Positions 55,685-64,000 of a stretch of 64,000 nucleotides of DNA are shown here, piece by piece. The stretch is taken from NCBI GenBank assembly GCA_017449065.1, contig JAFSKF010000052.1, positions 62,001 to 126,000 on the forward strand, given 5' to 3'. Position 1 is the first letter of the stretch; each line of letters begins with the position of its first letter. Both the position numbers and the translations under genes were made by a program. Origin of the DNA: Bacteroidales bacterium. GTDB lineage: Bacteria > Bacteroidota > Bacteroidia > Bacteroidales > UBA3663. A model generated the notes under the pieces. That model ran no database searches and was not told where the DNA came from. It saw only the letters and a list, made by a program, of their open reading frames with translations.

Positions 55685-56989
55685 ATGAATGATTCTAAAG
55701 GTTTCCTATTCTTTATCTGCTGCGTCAGCGCCATGGGCGGACTGCTTTTCGGTTACGACTGGGTGGTGATTGGCGGTGCCAAACCGTTCTATGAGCTTTA
55801 TTTCAGCATTGACGGTAACCCGTTCATGCAGGGTGTTGCCATGACTACCGCCCTGGTGGGGTGTCTGGCAGGTGCTATGGTGGCTGGCGCTTTGGCTGAC
55901 CGCTACGGACGCAAGCCCTTGCTCACCACAGCTGCCGTCTTCTTTACAGTCAGTGCTCTTGCAACAGGCTACTTCAACAGTTTCATCCTGTTCAATGTGG
56001 CACGTTTCATTGGCGGTATCGGTATCGGTGTGGCTTCCGCGCTTTCGCCTATCTACATTGCTGAGGTGAGTCCTGCCAACATTCGCGGACGCATGGTCAG
56101 CATCAACCAGATGACCATCGTGCTGGGCATTCTGGCAGCACAGATTGTCAATATGCTCCTGGCTCGGGACACGTCTGATGCTGCATCGCAAGCCTGGAAT
56201 CTGGAATGGGGCTGGCGATGGATGTTCTGGGCAGAGACAGCTCCTGCCGCACTCTTCTTAGTGCTGAGTTTCTTCATTCCCGAATCGCCGGTCTTCGTGC
56301 AGCTCAAGCAGCACCGGAAAGCGGTTGCAGCAGGTGCATCCGCAGCCAAAGAAGCCGGACTCAGCGAGTTGTTCACACCGAAATACGCCCGTGTGCTCCT
56401 GCTCGGTCTGGTGGTAGCTGTGTTCCAGCAATGGTGCGGCACCAATGTGATCTTTAACTATGCCCAAGAGATTTTTGTGGGTGCAGGCTTTAACGTCGAT
56501 GGTATGTTTATCAATATCGTGATTACAGGCATCGCCAATGTGATATTTACCTTTGTGGCGCTCTATACCATCGAGAAATGGGGACGTCGCACGCTGATGC
56601 TGATCGGAGCTGGCGGACTGGGTCTGATTTATCTGATACTTGGCACCTGCTATTATTTAGAAATGACCGGCATGCTGATGGTGGCACTGGTCGTGGCTGC
56701 CATTTCGTGCTACGCAATGACGCTCGGTCCGGTCACCTGGACGCTCCTTGCTGAAATCTTTCCCCATCGCGTGCGTGGCATTGCCATGGCGACTTGCACC
56801 TTTGCGCTATGGGTGGGCTGTTGCACCCTCACGTTCTTCTTCCCGCCCATGAATGCCACGCTTGGCACCTACGGCTCCTTCTGGGTCTATGCCGGCATCT
56901 GCATCTGCGCCTTTGTTTTCCTCTATCGCCGTTGCCCTGAAACCAAGGGCAAGAGCCTCGAAGAACTGGAAAAGGAACTGACATCTTAG
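55685..56989 (+). CDS. MFS sugar:proton symporter (sugar porter family)
   Basis: The 434-residue, 12-helix transporter begins GGLLFGYDWVVIGGAKPFYE. It has the family motifs GALADRYGRKPL, PESP after helix 6, and a terminal PETKGKSLEELE. It imports a monosaccharide; xylose, arabinose or galactose are all possible. With the divergent AraC regulator and the downstream DUF5107 protein it forms a sugar-utilisation unit. No sugar kinase or isomerase is in the window, so the sugar cannot be named. Confidence 0.9.
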   Translation: MNDSKGFLFFICCVSAMGGLLFGYDWVVIGGAKPFYELYFSIDGNPFMQGVAMTTALVGCLAGAMVAGALADRYGRKPLLTTAAVFFTVSALATGYFNSFILFNVARFIGGIGIGVASALSPIYIAEVSPANIRGRMVSINQMTIVLGILAAQIVNMLLARDTSDAASQAWNLEWGWRWMFWAETAPAALFLVLSFFIPESPVFVQLKQHRKAVAAGASAAKEAGLSELFTPKYARVLLLGLVVAVFQQWCGTNVIFNYAQEIFVGAGFNVDGMFINIVITGIANVIFTFVALYTIEKWGRRTLMLIGAGGLGLIYLILGTCYYLEMTGMLMVALVVAAISCYAMTLGPVTWTLLAEIFPHRVRGIAMATCTFALWVGCCTLTFFFPPMNATLGTYGSFWVYAGICICAFVFLYRRCPETKGKSLEELEKELTS

Positions 56990-57005
56990 CAGACAAAACA
57001 AACGT

Positions 57006-57073
57006 CCCTTTTACTCCCCTTTTACATCCCTTTAACTCCCCTTTAACTCCCCTTTAACTCCCCTTAATTACTC
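57006..57073. repeat. Six tandem 11-base repeats between two genes
   Basis: Units start at 57006, 57017, 57028, 57039, 57050 and 57061, an exact 11-base period. The consensus is CCCTTTAACTC, with the first two and last units diverged. They fill the gap between the sugar porter and the DUF5107 gene and end 10 bases before its ATG, where a ribosome would bind. Confidence 0.85.
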
Positions 57074-57082
57074 TTATATATT

Positions 57083-60000
57083 ATGGTCAAAGCTTGGCGT
57101 GAAGACGTGATCTTCCCAACCTACGAAGTTGGCAAACCCGAAAAGAATCCTATTTTTCTGGAGAAACGCGTTTATCAAGGTTCATCAGGTGTGGTTTATC
57201 CCTATCCTGTTATTGAAAGTATCAGCAACGAAAAGGTCGATAAGACCTATCATGCGGTTTATATCGAGAACGAATACATCAAGGTGATGATTCTGCCCGA
57301 ACTGGGCGGACGTGTGCAAATGGCATACGACAAGATCAAGCAACGTCATTTCATCTATTTTAATCATGTCATCAAACCGGCGCTGGTAGGCTTGCTCGGT
57401 CCCTGGATTTCGGGCGGCATCGAGTTCAACTGGCCGCAGCACCACCGTCCATCCACCTATATGCCCGTCGATTGCACCATCGAAGAAAGCAAAGACGGGT
57501 CGGTAACGGTCTGGGTGAACGAACGCGAGCGGATGTTCCATCAGCAGGGACAAGCCGGATTCACGCTTCGTCCGGGGTGTGCTTATCTCGAAATTCACGG
57601 CCGTCTCTACAATCCGACTCCCACGCCACAGACTTTCCTGTGGTGGGCAAATCCGGCTGTGGCTGTCAACGATCAGTACCAAAGCGTCTTCCCGCAGGAC
57701 GTCAACGCGGTGTTCGACCACGGCAAGCGTGCCGTCAGCTCTTTCCCGATTGCCACGGGTACCTATTATAAGATGGACTATAGTGCTGGTGTCGATATTT
57801 CGAACTACAAGAACATCTTTGTGCCAACCTCCTATATGGTGGCCCAATCGAAATACAACTTCGAGGGCGGTTACGAGAACGACACGCAGGCCGGTATGCT
57901 GCATGTGGCAGACCATCACTTCTCACCTGGCAAGAAACAGTGGACCTGTGGCAACGGCGACTTCGGACGTGCATGGGATCGTGCCCTTACCGATACTGAT
58001 GGACCCTATATCGAGCTGATGGCAGGTGTCTATACCGAAAACCAGCCCGACTTCACCTGGCTGATGCCATACGAGGAAAAGACCTTTGTGCAATACTTTA
58101 TGCCCTACCGCGAACTGGGCTTGGTGAAGAATGCCAGCAAGGATTTCATGATCAACGTGGCAGACGAAAGCATCCAAATTTTCGCCACCTCACGCCAGCA
58201 CGTGACCCTATCGGTGAAGAACGATGCCGGACGAACCTTACTGGAAGAGGAACTTGACCTCGGTCCGGAAGATGTTTACAGCAAGCACATTACAGGTCTC
58301 GATGCTGCCCATGTGCATGTGCGTCTGCTGCAGAACCGTCGCGTGGTGCTCAGCTACGATCCCGAACCCGACGAAATCACTCCGATTCCCGATGCCGCTG
58401 AGGCTGCCTTATTGCCTGCTGAGATCAAGACCAACGAACAGTTGTACCTCACCGGTTTGCATCTCGAACAGTACCGTCATGCCACCTGGTCAGCACTCGA
58501 CTACTATGAGGAAGCGCTTCGCCGCGACCCGCTCGATGTGCGTTGCAACAATGCCATGGGTCTGTGGTACATTCGTCGCGGGCGATTCCAGAAGGCTGAG
58601 AGCTACCTGCGCACAGCGGTAAAGGTGCTGCAGAAACGCAATCCGAACCCCTACGACGGCGAACCGCTTTACAACCTGGCGCTATGCCTAAAGTATCAGG
58701 GCAAGATTGATGAAGCCTACGACTGGGCGTATAAATCGACTTGGAATGCCGCCTGGCAGCAAGCCGGTTACCTGATGTGTGCCCAGATTGCCTGCATGCG
58801 ACAGGATTTCGAAGAGGCGCTCTATCTTATCGACAAGTCACTCATTTCGGGCTGGCACAATCACAAAGCCCGCGCCTTGAAGGCTGCCATTCTTCGCAAA
58901 CTGCATACCGATGCCTCCGAGTTCGAGGCTTTCGCCAAGGAAGCGCTTGCCATCAATCCGTTTAACTACGGTGTGCTGTTCGAACTGGGACGCATCGATG
59001 ATATACAGCGACTCATGCACGGCGATGCCAATAACTACGAGGAAGTGGCGCTCGATTATGCTGATGCCGGTCTCAAGGAGGAGGCGGTGCAGATACTGGA
59101 TCTTGCCATCCGGACAGGAGCCGCCACGCCTATGACCTATTACTACAAGACCTGGCTGACTGGTTCGGAATCCGATCACGCTGCAGCTCAGGCACAGCCG
59201 CAAGACTTCTGTTTCCCGAACCGTGCAGAAGCCGTCATGGCTCTCTCCGAGTATCCTGACGATCCGCGTGCCTGCTACTATTTAGGCAATCTCTACTACG
59301 ATCGCCGCCAGTACGATCTGGCTCGCGAACTTTGGGAAAAATCTGCGGCTCTCGAACCCGGGTTCCCCACTGTGCACCGCAATCTGGCCTTGGCCTATTT
59401 CAACAAGTGTAATGACGCCAAGCGTGCCGTAGCGGAAATGGAAACGGCTTATCGCCTTGACGAAACGGATGCTCGTATCCTGATGGAACTCGACCAGCTT
59501 TACAAACGCTTGCAATATGCGCACGATTTCCGCCTGAAGTTCCTGCAGCAACATCCTGCTGAAGTGGCAAAGCGCGACGACCTCGTTTTGGAAGAGATTA
59601 CCTTGCTCAATCAGGTGGGTCGATACGAAGAGGCCAAAGAGAAAATCGCCAGCCATTGGTTTCATGTCTGGGAAGGCGGCGAAGGCAAGGTGAGCGGACA
59701 ATACCAGATCTGCCGCGTGGAACTGGCGAAACAGCTCATCGGTCGTGCCGGGCAAGAGGCATCGAGCGACAATCGGAAAAAGGCCCTTCTCGATGCCATT
59801 TCATTGCTACAGGAGTGTCTGGTCTTCCCGCACAATCTTGGCGAAGGCAAACTCTATGGCGCGCAGGACAACGACTTCTACTTCTTCTTAGGCAAGGCCT
59901 ATGCGATGCTTGCTGATTTGTCGGAGAACGAAGCAGACAAGAAGCAACTTCTGCAACGCTCGACGGACAACTACCGGTTGGGTACTGCCGGACCTACCGA

Positions 60001-60367
60001 ACCGGCGGCAGCCATGTATTACAACGATGCCAAGCCCGACAAGATTTTCTATGCCGCCCTCTGCTATCGTGCCTTGGGAGACGAGAAAGCCGCTCGCGGA
60101 CTGTTCCACAAACTGATTTCCTATGGCGAAAAGCATATCTTCGATCACATCACGATGGACTATTTTGCCGTTAGCCTGCCCGACCTGCTGGTGTGGGACG
60201 GCAACCTTGACGAAGCCAATCGGATTCATTGCAACTATATGCTCGCCTTAGGCAACTATGGACTGGGCAATGCCGCCCAAGGAGCCAAATACCTTTCTAC
60301 GGTATTGGCCCTCAACGTGAATCACGATGGTGCCCGCGCCTTGCAGAGTTTTGTATCGAAGGGGTAA
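57083..60367 (+). CDS. DUF5107-TPR protein
   Basis: The 1094-residue protein has an N-terminal DUF5107 domain (about residues 40-360), a galactose-mutarotase-like beta-sandwich, with VMILPELGGRVQMAYD, ISGGIEFNWPQHHRPSTY and GFTLRPGCAYLEIHGRLYN. Many TPR repeats fill about 440-1085 (SALDYYEEALRRDPLDVRCN, LARELWEKSAALEPGFPTVH). No signal peptide is seen, so it is probably cytoplasmic. DUF5107 proteins occur next to sugar transporters and AraC regulators, and may bind or epimerise a sugar; activity is unproven. It is separated from the porter by six 11-base repeats. Confidence 0.87.
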   Translation: MVKAWREDVIFPTYEVGKPEKNPIFLEKRVYQGSSGVVYPYPVIESISNEKVDKTYHAVYIENEYIKVMILPELGGRVQMAYDKIKQRHFIYFNHVIKPALVGLLGPWISGGIEFNWPQHHRPSTYMPVDCTIEESKDGSVTVWVNERERMFHQQGQAGFTLRPGCAYLEIHGRLYNPTPTPQTFLWWANPAVAVNDQYQSVFPQDVNAVFDHGKRAVSSFPIATGTYYKMDYSAGVDISNYKNIFVPTSYMVAQSKYNFEGGYENDTQAGMLHVADHHFSPGKKQWTCGNGDFGRAWDRALTDTDGPYIELMAGVYTENQPDFTWLMPYEEKTFVQYFMPYRELGLVKNASKDFMINVADESIQIFATSRQHVTLSVKNDAGRTLLEEELDLGPEDVYSKHITGLDAAHVHVRLLQNRRVVLSYDPEPDEITPIPDAAEAALLPAEIKTNEQLYLTGLHLEQYRHATWSALDYYEEALRRDPLDVRCNNAMGLWYIRRGRFQKAESYLRTAVKVLQKRNPNPYDGEPLYNLALCLKYQGKIDEAYDWAYKSTWNAAWQQAGYLMCAQIACMRQDFEEALYLIDKSLISGWHNHKARALKAAILRKLHTDASEFEAFAKEALAINPFNYGVLFELGRIDDIQRLMHGDANNYEEVALDYADAGLKEEAVQILDLAIRTGAATPMTYYYKTWLTGSESDHAAAQAQPQDFCFPNRAEAVMALSEYPDDPRACYYLGNLYYDRRQYDLARELWEKSAALEPGFPTVHRNLALAYFNKCNDAKRAVAEMETAYRLDETDARILMELDQLYKRLQYAHDFRLKFLQQHPAEVAKRDDLVLEEITLLNQVGRYEEAKEKIASHWFHVWEGGEGKVSGQYQICRVELAKQLIGRAGQEASSDNRKKALLDAISLLQECLVFPHNLGEGKLYGAQDNDFYFFLGKAYAMLADLSENEADKKQLLQRSTDNYRLGTAGPTEPAAAMYYNDAKPDKIFYAALCYRALGDEKAARGLFHKLISYGEKHIFDHITMDYFAVSLPDLLVWDGNLDEANRIHCNYMLALGNYGLGNAAQGAKYLSTVLALNVNHDGARALQSFVSKG

Positions 60368-60507
60368 TAAATTTAGGGTCACATCCCACAAACTTCCGTC
60401 CATCGAGCGTCAGACAATCTTTGGTTGGGAAAAAGAAACGTCGAGGAGGCATTTAGAAGTAAAATAAAGATTTCTTGGGCTACATTTACTCTTTTTCTTC
60501 AAAAAAG

Positions 60508-60539
60508 TTTGGCTATTTCAAAATAAAGCTGTACCTTTG
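60508..60539 (+). promoter_or_regulatory. Promoter of the Abi_2 gene
   Basis: TTTG (60508-60511), 20 bases, TACCTTTG (60532-60539): full consensus. The leader runs from about 60546 to 60604. Upstream, 60368-60507 shows no gene that I can support. Confidence 0.8.
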
Positions 60540-60549
60540 CACCACTAGA

Positions 60550-60599
60550 ACCCGCCAAGCCTCTCAACGATGCTCAAATGTGCGGGTCGTTTTATTTTT
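60550..60599 (+). promoter_or_regulatory. Attenuator-like hairpin in the Abi_2 leader
   Basis: ACCCGC (60550-60555) pairs with GCGGGT (60582-60587), and a T-rich tract (CGTTTTATTTTTAT) follows directly before the start codon at 60605. This has the layout of an intrinsic terminator inside the leader. A conserved RNA motif named abiF has been described beside Abi_2-family genes; a match here is untested. Confidence 0.45.
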
Positions 60600-60604
60600 A
60601 TACA

Positions 60605-61507
60605 ATGAGCAATAGAATTCCATTCCAGAAGCCGTACACCAGTGCACACGACCTAGTCAGTCTCTTGCAGTCACGAGGCTTGACGGTCGCATACACAGTT
60701 AAGGCAGAAAGTTATCTCGAATATATAGGCTATTACCGCCTGTCAGCCTATATGTATCCTTTATTACAGATACCCAAGGAGCAACACCGCTACAAACCGA
60801 ACACCTCATTCGACCAAGTGATGATGCTCTACCGTTTCGACAAGAAACTTCGCCTGCTTATATTCAATGAGATAGAGAAAATCGAAGTGGCAGTACGCAG
60901 CGCGATTGTCAATATCGGCAGCGACATGACGGGCAATCCCTTCTGGATGACCGACAGTAGCAATTTCATTGACCAAGGCAAATTCCATCATACAATGGAC
61001 TTGATAGACGCAGAACTTCACCGCTCACGTGAAGATTTCATCGTCCACTTCAAGCAGACATATTCCGATGCCTATCCTCCTGCTTGGATATTGGCTGAAG
61101 TACTCCCCTTCGGAGTCATCACCAATATCTTCAGCAATATCAAGGTCGCCCGAATTAAGAAGAACATCGCTCGGAGATTTGGTTTACAAGTGGCACCTTT
61201 TGAGTCGTGGCTTACCATTGTAACCCTGACCCGCAATTCCTGTTGCCATCATGCTCGTGTGTGGAACAAGCAGAATACCATACGTCCGATGCTTCCCAAT
61301 CGCATGGCTGGAAACTGGATAACACTTCCCACGGATGCGCTACGAATCTATTTCAACCTCTGCATCATCAAGTATTTCCTGAACATCATTTCCCCACATA
61401 ACGACATGAAGGCTAAGATTGATGCGCTTCTTGCCAACTATCCAGCCATTGACACCGTAGCCATGGGGTTCCCCCGTGGGTGGGAACGTGAACCGCTGTG
61501 GCAATAG
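60605..61507 (+). CDS. Abi_2-family abortive-infection protein (HEPN superfamily)
   Basis: This 300-residue protein of the Abi_2 family (AbiD/AbiF-like) has YIGYYRLSAYMYPL (40-53), KLRLLIFNEIEKIEVAVRSA (81-100) and the HEPN-type RNase motif RNSCCHH (210-216, RX4-6H). These proteins halt phage infection, probably by cleaving RNA when triggered. The start at 60605 is preferred because an in-frame ATG at 60578 lies within the leader hairpin. It stands alone with its own promoter between metabolic and envelope genes, a typical position for a mobile defence gene. Confidence 0.85.
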   Translation: MSNRIPFQKPYTSAHDLVSLLQSRGLTVAYTVKAESYLEYIGYYRLSAYMYPLLQIPKEQHRYKPNTSFDQVMMLYRFDKKLRLLIFNEIEKIEVAVRSAIVNIGSDMTGNPFWMTDSSNFIDQGKFHHTMDLIDAELHRSREDFIVHFKQTYSDAYPPAWILAEVLPFGVITNIFSNIKVARIKKNIARRFGLQVAPFESWLTIVTLTRNSCCHHARVWNKQNTIRPMLPNRMAGNWITLPTDALRIYFNLCIIKYFLNIISPHNDMKAKIDALLANYPAIDTVAMGFPRGWEREPLWQ

Positions 61508-61522
61508 ATACTGTCTATATAC

Positions 61523-63001
61523 TTATTTTTTCAAAATAATCACTTTCGCGGTCTGATTATTCATCTTGGGCATTGTTCTTCCCACGGGGGCACCGATATA
61601 CGTCGGATCTGAAATCACAAACTTGCGTCCGTTCAGCTGAATGTAATCACCCGACACCTCTTCTGTGAAGGCCACCGCTGCTGCCAAATGTCCCGGATAG
61701 AACACCAGGATACAGTCCAGACCAACAAGGTCACGCACCAGTCGGGTGAACAAAATTGACCGGTCTTCACAATCGCAGTAGGGATAAAACAGCGTCTCTT
61801 CTGCAAAGAAAGCACGGTCTCCGCCCCACACCTTATCGTCATACTCGTACACGAAACCCGTCTGCACCAGATTCAACAAACGCGACACGGCTTCAAGTTC
61901 TGACAATCCAGACAACAGTTTCTTCAGCGTCGGATACACTTGGCTCTTCACTTGACCGTCTATCGGTGTATTAGCATACATTGCCCAACGCGTCATTACG
62001 TTGCCATCCAGCATCGAAGACGGATAGGTGTTATAGAAGTCAATCAGGTTCTTATTCACCGATACCGAAACCTTGACATCGCTGTACTTCTTGGATGTGA
62101 TAGTTCTGGATGCTGTGTTCGACGGTGAAAAACGCTGATTGTCCTGAATCATCAGCGACAGCCCCTTTTCCTTCGGGAAAGAAGCCTGACAGATGTAAAG
62201 TCGGGAAGGCAGCGCCTCGACCCCATAATACAAATCGGTTCCCAAAGTATATGAGTTCCGGTCGAAGATCTGATGCTTGCTTGCAAACAGCATATACAAC
62301 TTGTTTCCATCCGAAGCCAGACGCATCTTATAACCCGACTGCATATACAGATAAGCCAGCATCAGTGCACTTTCATTCGTTCCCTGTCCGCAAACCTGAT
62401 CCGACAACGCCTTCAGCATCTGCACGTATCCCCAGTCGCTCAGCCCCAGGTCTTTTCTCATCGCCAGGCAATCGCGCAGCATATTGTCGTACTTTCGGGC
62501 ATCGATGTTTGCCAAGGCTTCTGAAACGGAGGTTTCACTGCAGCCTCGCATCACAATGCGGTCTGCCTCATCAAAGCGAACCTGACCCTGCGTACCGAAA
62601 AAAGTAAAATCGACGGTTTTTGCCGTCACCACCGGCACTTCTTTAATAGGTTCCACAGGTTGTGGCTGAGGCTCCACCGGAACTGGCTTAATCACCTCTT
62701 CGATGATGACAGGCTTATCCTCCACCGGTTTGTTTTTTTCTTCCTCGGGTATTACTACGGGAGGATCCGGATTCTCCTTTGGTTTGGGCACCGGTTTCGT
62801 TTCTTCGAAGCTCTTCCAAGGGTTCCTGACAAACTCCACATAATCGTCCATGCATTTCTTTCTGAAGTCCTCGAAATCCTGACGGACAGACTTTCGGAAT
62901 TCTTCGAACGAAGCATGAAGATCCTTGGTATCTAAATTTTGGGCATGGCCTTGCACCAAGCCAAAGACCATGCCCAAAATCAGTAGTTCACAACGTTTCA
63001 T
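61523..63001 (-). CDS. Secreted transglutaminase-like protein with proline-rich linker
   Basis: The 492-residue protein has signal peptide MKRCELLILGMVFGLVQGHA and a short helical region to about 65. A Pro/Glu/Val-rich linker (70-120) resembles a TonB-like spacer. The large domain ends in a cysteine-protease-like triad: Cys411 in CDCEDRS, His438 in GHLAA and Asp465 in ISDPTY. That order and spacing fit the transglutaminase-like superfamily, which includes peptidases and amidases. Substrate unknown. It starts 2 bases after the 63004 gene ends, so they are co-translated. Confidence 0.78.
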   Translation of the reverse strand: MKRCELLILGMVFGLVQGHAQNLDTKDLHASFEEFRKSVRQDFEDFRKKCMDDYVEFVRNPWKSFEETKPVPKPKENPDPPVVIPEEEKNKPVEDKPVIIEEVIKPVPVEPQPQPVEPIKEVPVVTAKTVDFTFFGTQGQVRFDEADRIVMRGCSETSVSEALANIDARKYDNMLRDCLAMRKDLGLSDWGYVQMLKALSDQVCGQGTNESALMLAYLYMQSGYKMRLASDGNKLYMLFASKHQIFDRNSYTLGTDLYYGVEALPSRLYICQASFPKEKGLSLMIQDNQRFSPSNTASRTITSKKYSDVKVSVSVNKNLIDFYNTYPSSMLDGNVMTRWAMYANTPIDGQVKSQVYPTLKKLLSGLSELEAVSRLLNLVQTGFVYEYDDKVWGGDRAFFAEETLFYPYCDCEDRSILFTRLVRDLVGLDCILVFYPGHLAAAVAFTEEVSGDYIQLNGRKFVISDPTYIGAPVGRTMPKMNNQTAKVIILKK

Positions 63002-63003
63002 AC

Positions 63004-63690
63004 TTAAAGTCGGTTTTTGATCAGGTCATCGACAACGCCTTTCAGTTCGTCGCCCTCAGCCTCCAGTTCCTTCTGCATATTCCGTTTCAGACGGGCAGCC
63101 AGTTCCTTCTTGTCGAATGCCACACGCACCTGCACCTGATAACTGTTGTTCTTCAAAGTGCGATAGATGGACATGACCGGAATGGCATTGGTGATCGACT
63201 GATCGACAATCGCTTTCACACGCTGGTTGAATTTATCGTTGGCAGTACTTGAAATGACTCCGTTCTGTGCATTGTCCAAGGCCTGTTGCCAGGCAGCAGC
63301 CAATTGGGTTTCCATCATCGAAGCCACTTCTGTCAGCGCTGCGGCACGGGCTGCAGCATAGCCTGCATTGTAGGAACCCGAAGTCTGCATAGCCGTATGC
63401 TGCAAGTAGCGCTTTGCAGGAGCTCCGTTCTCATCTGCCATCAGCTCCATACCGAGCAATTGGCTCTGCATCAGTTGCTGTTCGATGGTAGGATCGCCAG
63501 CTGGCACCACCCAACCTTCTTTCTTCAGTTCTTTAGCCTGCTTCTTCACGTCCTTGGTCGGTTTGCTCTTCAGCATCTTCATGTTGATCTCATTCAGTTC
63601 TCTCTGCTGCTTTGCCAGTTCAACGGCGGTCTGAGCGTAAGTAAAGGTTGTCATCATGGCTACTGCCAAACATAAAAACATCTTTTTCAT
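63004..63690 (-). CDS. Small secreted hypothetical protein, partner of the transglutaminase-like gene
   Basis: I do not recognise this 228-residue protein. It has signal peptide MKKMFLCLAVAMMTTFTYA and is mostly helical. A lysine-rich stretch (38-58), an alanine-rich middle (YNAGYAAARAAALTEVASM) and a C-terminal half with VMSIYRTLKNNSYQVQVRVA follow, like periplasmic LPP20-type proteins but with no lipobox. It is directly upstream of the transglutaminase-like gene, two bases apart, suggesting a shared envelope task. Confidence 0.7.
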   Translation of the reverse strand: MKKMFLCLAVAMMTTFTYAQTAVELAKQQRELNEINMKMLKSKPTKDVKKQAKELKKEGWVVPAGDPTIEQQLMQSQLLGMELMADENGAPAKRYLQHTAMQTSGSYNAGYAAARAAALTEVASMMETQLAAAWQQALDNAQNGVISSTANDKFNQRVKAIVDQSITNAIPVMSIYRTLKNNSYQVQVRVAFDKKELAARLKRNMQKELEAEGDELKGVVDDLIKNRL

Positions 63691-63787
63691 AACAGTAATT
63701 TTTAAAGGTTTATACTATTTGTTGTTTGTTTCTTTGCCTATTAAAGCCGGATTGTCGGGAAAGTAACCCAACGGAATTAAAAAAATT

Positions 63788-64000
63788 TCAGATTTTTTCC
63801 AAAAGTTGTTCTGCTTCCTCCATATGTTCACAGAACTCCGGATATCTCAGGTATTTCCGGATCTCTTTCTTGGCAGACCGGTTCTGCCCTTTCTTCAGCA
63901 GCAGGTAGATGTACGTCCACCGGAGTTCGCTGTTCACGGTTCTTTCCAGATTCCGGCTATAGACCAGATCTTCGTCTTCGCCCAAGTAGTCGTTCCATTC
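63788..64000 (-). CDS. 3' end of an unidentified gene (partial)
   Basis: The last 70 codons of a gene that enters from the right edge are open to base 64000. The reading EWNDYLGEDEDLVYSRNLER, then YIYLLLKKGQNRSAKKEIRK, ends EEAEQLLEKI. The basic helical tail is reminiscent of C-termini of some GT2 glycosyltransferases, but this is weak. An in-frame TTG at 63985 is not a convincing start. Confidence 0.55.
   Translation of the reverse strand, partial: EWNDYLGEDEDLVYSRNLERTVNSELRWTYIYLLLKKGQNRSAKKEIRKYLRYPEFCEHMEEAEQLLEKI

Follow-up and report, generated by a model that had tools for sequence, protein, structure and literature searches.

An AbiF-type HEPN RNase gene with an abiF RNA in its leader in a Bacteroidales genome, and solitary copies of this RNA in bacteria and phages

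The analysed stretch of DNA (the window, 64,000 nucleotides of a Bacteroidales genome) carries at 60605-61507 (+) an abiF gene coding for an Abi_2/HEPN RNase of 300 amino acids. An Abi_2/HEPN gene had been recognised here in a preliminary description, and the domain search bore this out: PF07751 (Abi_2) was matched with 188.5 bits against a cut-off of 25.6, it was the sole Pfam family matched by the protein, and PADLOC labelled the product AbiD. Comparison with the PDB chain 8vz6_A revealed 267 identical residues out of 300 (89%), equal length, and conservation of Arg210 and His215 of the HEPN motif RNSCCH (R-x4-H, residues 210-215, encoded at 61232-61249, +). According to the parts of the two papers available to us, 8VZ6 (identifier given in PMC12737573) is the structure of an AbiF from a host named Prevotellaceae bacterium (PMC12373285), in which two copies of its non-coding RNA accompany a homodimer of the protein (PMC12373285, PMC12737573); the R210A+H215A protein is inactive (PMC12373285), and RNA binding, inhibition of the protein and toxicity have been reported both for 8vz6 and for AbiFCd of C. 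difficile (PMC12373285, PMC12737573). ATG 60605, which gives 300 residues as in 8vz6, is most likely the start codon; the longer frame from ATG 60578 was rejected, since this codon lies inside the RNA described below and 8vz6 begins at the homologue of 60605. The four neighbouring genes scanned code for a sugar transporter, a DUF5107/TPR protein (present in other genomes of the genus as well) and two proteins with no Pfam match; none of the four matched a defence gene in PADLOC. The AbiF protein could be a housekeeping RNase.

The leader was compared in 77 relatives picked by their protein alone, 71 of which were testable (in the other 6 the contig ended before or within the leader). A Bacteroidota-type promoter was located at 60508-60539 (+), consisting of TTTG (60508-60511), a gap of 20 nt and TACCTTTG (60532-60539), an arrangement which fits the promoter pattern of Bacteroidota. 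The corresponding TAnnTTTG box stands 17-18 nt ahead of the RNA core in 71 of the 71 testable relatives. The promoter previously called perfect is not of the sigma-70 type: a scan of 59000-62600 gave 3 such sites, none of them near 60505-60540.

The covariance search proposed in the preliminary description yielded a match to the abiF RNA model, RF03085, at 60551-60587 (+), with 58.5 bits (E 2.8e-9; gathering threshold 37), the one single match across 56000-64000. The outer stem is formed by 60550-60555/60582-60587 and the inner stem by 60558-60560/60572-60574. The hairpin reported earlier is this outer stem, in which ACCCGC can potentially pair with GCGGGT, and the T-rich tract just ahead of the start was also confirmed, the order 3' of the hairpin being CG, TTTTATTTTT (60590-60599, +), ATACA and ATG 60605. 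The 19 specified bases of the RNA core occurred once in the window and in none of 100 shuffles, and the fold of 60545-60601 reached -14.2 kcal/mol (z -2.48, only single folds being computed), which 3 of 200 shuffles equalled. A short, AbiFr-like antitoxin RNA would thus extend over 60545-60599 (+), both ends being placed by the promoter position, the T-tract and the fold. What had been called a terminator-like hairpin is best read as an antitoxin RNA; together with the T-tract, a presumed leaky terminator, it probably also acts as such ahead of the toxin gene. Termination in the leader is suggested by the T-tract, since the corresponding place holds 7-12 T among 14 bases in 71 of 71 relatives; a generic terminator scan of 59000-62600, which permits loops of 3-8 only, gave 0 sites.

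In all 71 testable relatives promoter box, RNA core and T-rich tail stood ahead of the gene with near-fixed spacing. For every relative the longest alignment at the DNA level was confined to 60423-61526 of the window, so that promoter, RNA and gene travel together. A shared neighbourhood was considered and discarded: the flanking genes of the window were absent beside the 77 relatives, one stretch of 186 bp (72%) in L086 excepted. In the leaders of L023, L031, L033 and L042 the apical loop of the RNA, which is of the class designated I, holds inserts of about 30-80 nt, and the flanking core is kept.

We consider it very probable that the locus is an AbiF-AbiFr toxin-antitoxin pair. RNA, gene, promoter box, T-tract, catalytic motif and conservation were observed here, and by analogy the locus would act like its homologues. 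The earlier suggestion of a non-coding RNA partner for a toxin-like protein gained support from the RF03085 match and from the AbiF of 8vz6, to which the protein is 89% identical and which was reported to be solved with an inhibitory RNA. In the proposed mechanism a single promoter would give rise to a short RNA of about 55 nt folding into the abiF hairpin; the U-tract would stop most transcripts, and occasional read-through would supply the abiF mRNA. The RNA would bind the AbiF HEPN dimer and block its RNase activity, until infection or stress cuts the supply of RNA, whereupon AbiF would be freed, RNA cleaved and growth stopped. The release step is our assumption, and release by phage takeover is treated as speculative also in the available part of PMC12373285. 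It is plausible that the leader in addition attenuates abiF expression, since the homologous C. difficile leader is reported to terminate transcription (PMC12373285, available in part).

The same genome harbours a second abiF gene (locus L002), whose product is 35% identical to that of the window and which has no RF03085 match; its leader contains a different hairpin in two copies. These divergent copies (L002:1183-1241 and 1428-1486; G000:C29) score 47.3 and 48.2 bits with the model R1 introduced below; a short broken frame follows the first and an intact gene the second. Among 393 genomes of the order, 43 full-length Abi_2 genes lacked an RF03085 match (L002 set aside); all 43 were examined, and 27 had a divergent, covarying RNA. 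Its build comprises an outer stem, an inner stem (CGCT/AGCG or similar), a 3' bulge mostly of 6 bases and a T-tract. In an Rfam scan of 40 loci (39 of the 43 plus L002) none reached the gathering threshold (37), four giving RF03085 scores of 26.3-32.2 bits. In an alignment of 19 divergent sequences (18 distinct) 92.1% of the cells pair, against 34.7-46.3% when the partners are slid, and two-sided changes occur in 21 cells, distributed over 7 of 12 pairs, against 5.2 in shuffles. The model R1, built from these 19 RNAs, finds the window RNA at its exact place, although with no more than 15.2 bits (E 0.05); on account of this match and the shared layout both RNAs are taken as one family. The public model covers only part of the abiF RNA family.

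The pairing of RNA and gene was then counted with thresholds of at least 37 bits for RF03085 and at least 33 bits for R1; since the order also supplied the loci behind R1, its matches there arise partly by construction, and the search outside the order is independent. Within the order (4 RF03085 rows below 37 bits, the R1 rows below 33 bits and 14 weak Abi_2 rows being left out) 71 RNA sites were found in 55 genomes, 50 of them with Abi_2 at most 500 nt downstream. Outside the order, which had been held out, 23 of the 28 full-length Abi_2 genes counted have an R1 site of at least 33 bits upstream, and Abi_2 follows 29 of the 53 sites reaching that score (11 R1 rows below 33 bits, 2 rows from the genome of the window itself and 9 others, 3 of the order and 6 weak, were left out). 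The remaining sites, 21 of the 71 within the order and 24 of the 53 beyond it, had no Abi_2 downstream, toxin-less counts which carry a detection bias, as decayed RNAs go unseen.

Seen from the side of the gene, an RNA or RNA candidate adjoins 52 of the 59 full-length Abi_2 genes of the order. A threshold-passing site was present at 43 of the 59, a third hairpin variant at five more (15-24 bits with R1 in the four loci fetched), and in four loci a candidate lies 3' of abiF: L232 with 22.7 bits, L241 with 14.8, L234 with 12.2 and L221 with 6.5 (R1), the last score being not significant and this candidate being placed by eye beside L234 and L241. The candidate of L232 is on the opposite strand and convergent; those of L221, L234 and L241 are on the strand of the gene and have a TAnnTTTG box ahead of them. 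An RNA of this family can probably be placed 5' or 3' of its gene, and the 3' candidates favour a partner acting in trans. They also bear on the alternative that the leader is a cis attenuator only, a conditional terminator sensing a phage or stress signal, whose released RNA has no function. Such an attenuator would account for the hairpin and T-tract right ahead of the start codon in the 71 testable relatives and for the termination that the leader was reported to bring about in C. difficile (PMC12373285, available in part), but an RNA 3' of the gene, as in these four homologous loci, cannot attenuate it, many RNAs have no abiF gene downstream, and an RNA-protein complex and action in trans have been reported for homologues; we regard this alternative as highly unlikely.

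For 7 of the 59 genes no RNA was found. Five of these seven form one outside clade in the tree (support 100/100), and the leaders of the other two resemble those of the clade members. The loci L243-L247 constitute a deep Abi_2 clade with the motif RNxxxHG, where no abiF-like RNA was found and which may be controlled differently. When the RNA labels (I, II, IIb, III, none) were laid on a tree of 72 proteins, 8 changes were required against 36.6 in shuffles (among the class I rows L098-L109 were chosen for having the RNA, L020-L096 were not so chosen): the RNA class follows the protein tree. The RNxxxH motif was present in 71 of the 71 proteins compared.

Nine genomes of the order with toxin-less RNA sites (G034, G169, G185, G199, G284, G286, G315, G328, G340) have no match in the Abi_2 search of the order. 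A toxin fragment persists at 7 out of 25 RNA sites that lack an abiF gene, therefore toxin decay explains part of these loci; internal toxin deletions leave the RNA standing. Decay explains less easily L165 and L009, where RNAs of two different classes follow each other in tandem with no toxin. Decay being common in relatives, as these seven sites illustrate, it could be supposed that the locus of the window too is decayed or silent and its gene out of use; its frame, however, is open for 300 residues, and no damage is seen in catalytic motif, promoter box or RNA, which makes this extremely unlikely. A search for another protein partner at 29 toxin-less loci found downstream ORFs recurring in three locus pairs only: abiF remnants in L005/L008, one small unrelated gene pair in L271/L274, and ORF6N and RhuM genes in L009/L166. 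In the last pair (L009:383-1538, -; L166:468-1365, +) the RNAs end 11-23 nt ahead of the ORF6N/RhuM genes, and both are PADLOC candidates PDC-S05. Solitary class II RNAs were also seen at L188:1501-1551 (-) and L199:1474-1523 (-), ahead of other gene pairs with the look of toxin-antitoxin systems, presumably HEPN/MNT-like in L188 and DUF3791/DUF3990-like in L199.

Solitary copies of the RNA were met in viruses as well (IMG/VR stretches L275-L383, phage isolate regions L384-L394). The class I core was found in 98 IMG/VR stretches and the reversed control pattern in 0; two class II patterns added 4 and 7 sites, giving 109 in all, on records that are possibly fragments and near copies. At 3 of the 109 sites AbiF lies at most 400 nt downstream, at 101 it is absent over that distance, and the other 5 are too close to an end. 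RF03085 was run on 40 class I stretches, chosen among the 98 for their long records: the cut-off was passed in 30, the other 10 gave 27-36 bits, and Abi_2 was found in 1 of the 40. Among 87 distinct viral sequences 66.2% of the cells pair, against 45.9% in shuffles (largest 51.9%) and 39.8-51.9% when slid, and 160 double changes stand against 73.7 (largest 99): the viral stems vary and compensate. A tRNA gene, in every case on the strand of the RNA, lies within 150 nt at 33 of the 109 sites; random positions drawn from these stretches gave 9.5 (largest 15).

In phage isolates, blastn with two queries of 38 nt hit 7 and 75 records, overlapping, several of the 7 weakly, and 53 of the 75 being from Mycobacterium. 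The RF03085 cut-off was passed at the place in 10 of 11 isolate regions, Arthrobacter phage Mimi failing, and a search of the 11 for AbiF found none, the control L310 being detected. In Lolly9, S-SZBM1 and S-CREM1 4 nt separate the end of the RNA from a following tRNA gene, and in Mimi the RNA has tRNA genes on both sides; Acj61 has a tRNA array whose nearest gene is about 1.9 kb from the RNA, and in two Aeromonas T7-like phages the RNA stands among late genes, between connector and scaffold. AbiF-like proteins occur in 78 phage records, which share no genus but 'Bacteriophage sp.' with the RNA-bearing ones, though a distant AbiF could escape.

In the accessible text of PMC9964418 an abiF sRNA is noted in the lytic cyanophage S-CREM1 and in three phage genomes in Rfam, its function being given as unknown, a statement repeated in the accessible part of PMC12197685. 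Judging from sequence, we tentatively propose that phages encode solitary abiF RNAs, often by tRNA genes, as decoys against the AbiF RNase of the host during infection, a proposal which in our estimate falls slightly short of an even chance; solitary and tandem toxin-less units of bacterial genomes, such as L165 and L009, might in that case act as anti-addiction copies rather than being simply relics of lost toxins. If this reading were true, the phage abiF RNA would be an RNA counter-defence, and phage tRNA arrays would gain a neighbour with a clear role. The wider RNA family, its probable placing on either side of the gene and the phage copies lacking the toxin matter more than the pair in the window that led to them, and a direct test of phage protection from AbiF is now possible. 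Our literature search found no paper proposing an anti-AbiF role or divergent RNA classes, most subscription papers, including the original 8vz6 paper, being outside its reach.

Among known systems the type III toxin-antitoxin system ToxIN works alike, with an RNA antitoxin upstream of an RNase toxin and read-through of a terminator. ToxIN has tandem RNA repeats and another toxin fold; in contrast, the window has one RF03085 match in 56000-64000, and its protein matches Abi_2 as sole Pfam family. The AbiD/AbiF proteins of Lactococcus plasmids have the Abi_2 family in common with the window protein, their sequences being distant; phage resistance is known for them, not for the window gene, from literature cited in the available part of PMC12373285. 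In the same source AbiFCd-RCd22 of C. difficile likewise has an abiF motif RNA in the leader, one promoter for RNA and toxin and a HEPN RNase, and RCd22 neutralises AbiF in cis and in trans, its terminator lowering read-through; it differs in having two motifs and a separate terminator hairpin, whereas the single motif of the window has the T-tract behind its own stem. On the phage side only, the Racr RNA anti-CRISPRs (PMC10651486, available in part) offer a parallel, being solitary copies of the RNA of a defence system carried by viruses; they mimic CRISPR repeats, and in the part of that paper available no type VI units were found among them. The neighbourhood of RF03085 and AbiD/F is noted in the accessible part of PMC12165695, and the AbiF-AbiFr system has been put forward in print as the ancestor of CRISPR-Cas13. 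With PbAbiF-AbiFr (8vz6; Zilberzwige-Tal et al., via the available parts of PMC12373285 and PMC12737573) the window shares 267 of 300 residues, length, R210/H215 and the RNA partner, 33 residues being different in this comparison of the proteins. The pair in the window belongs to the already described AbiF-AbiFr system; the new lead comes from the solitary RNA of phages.
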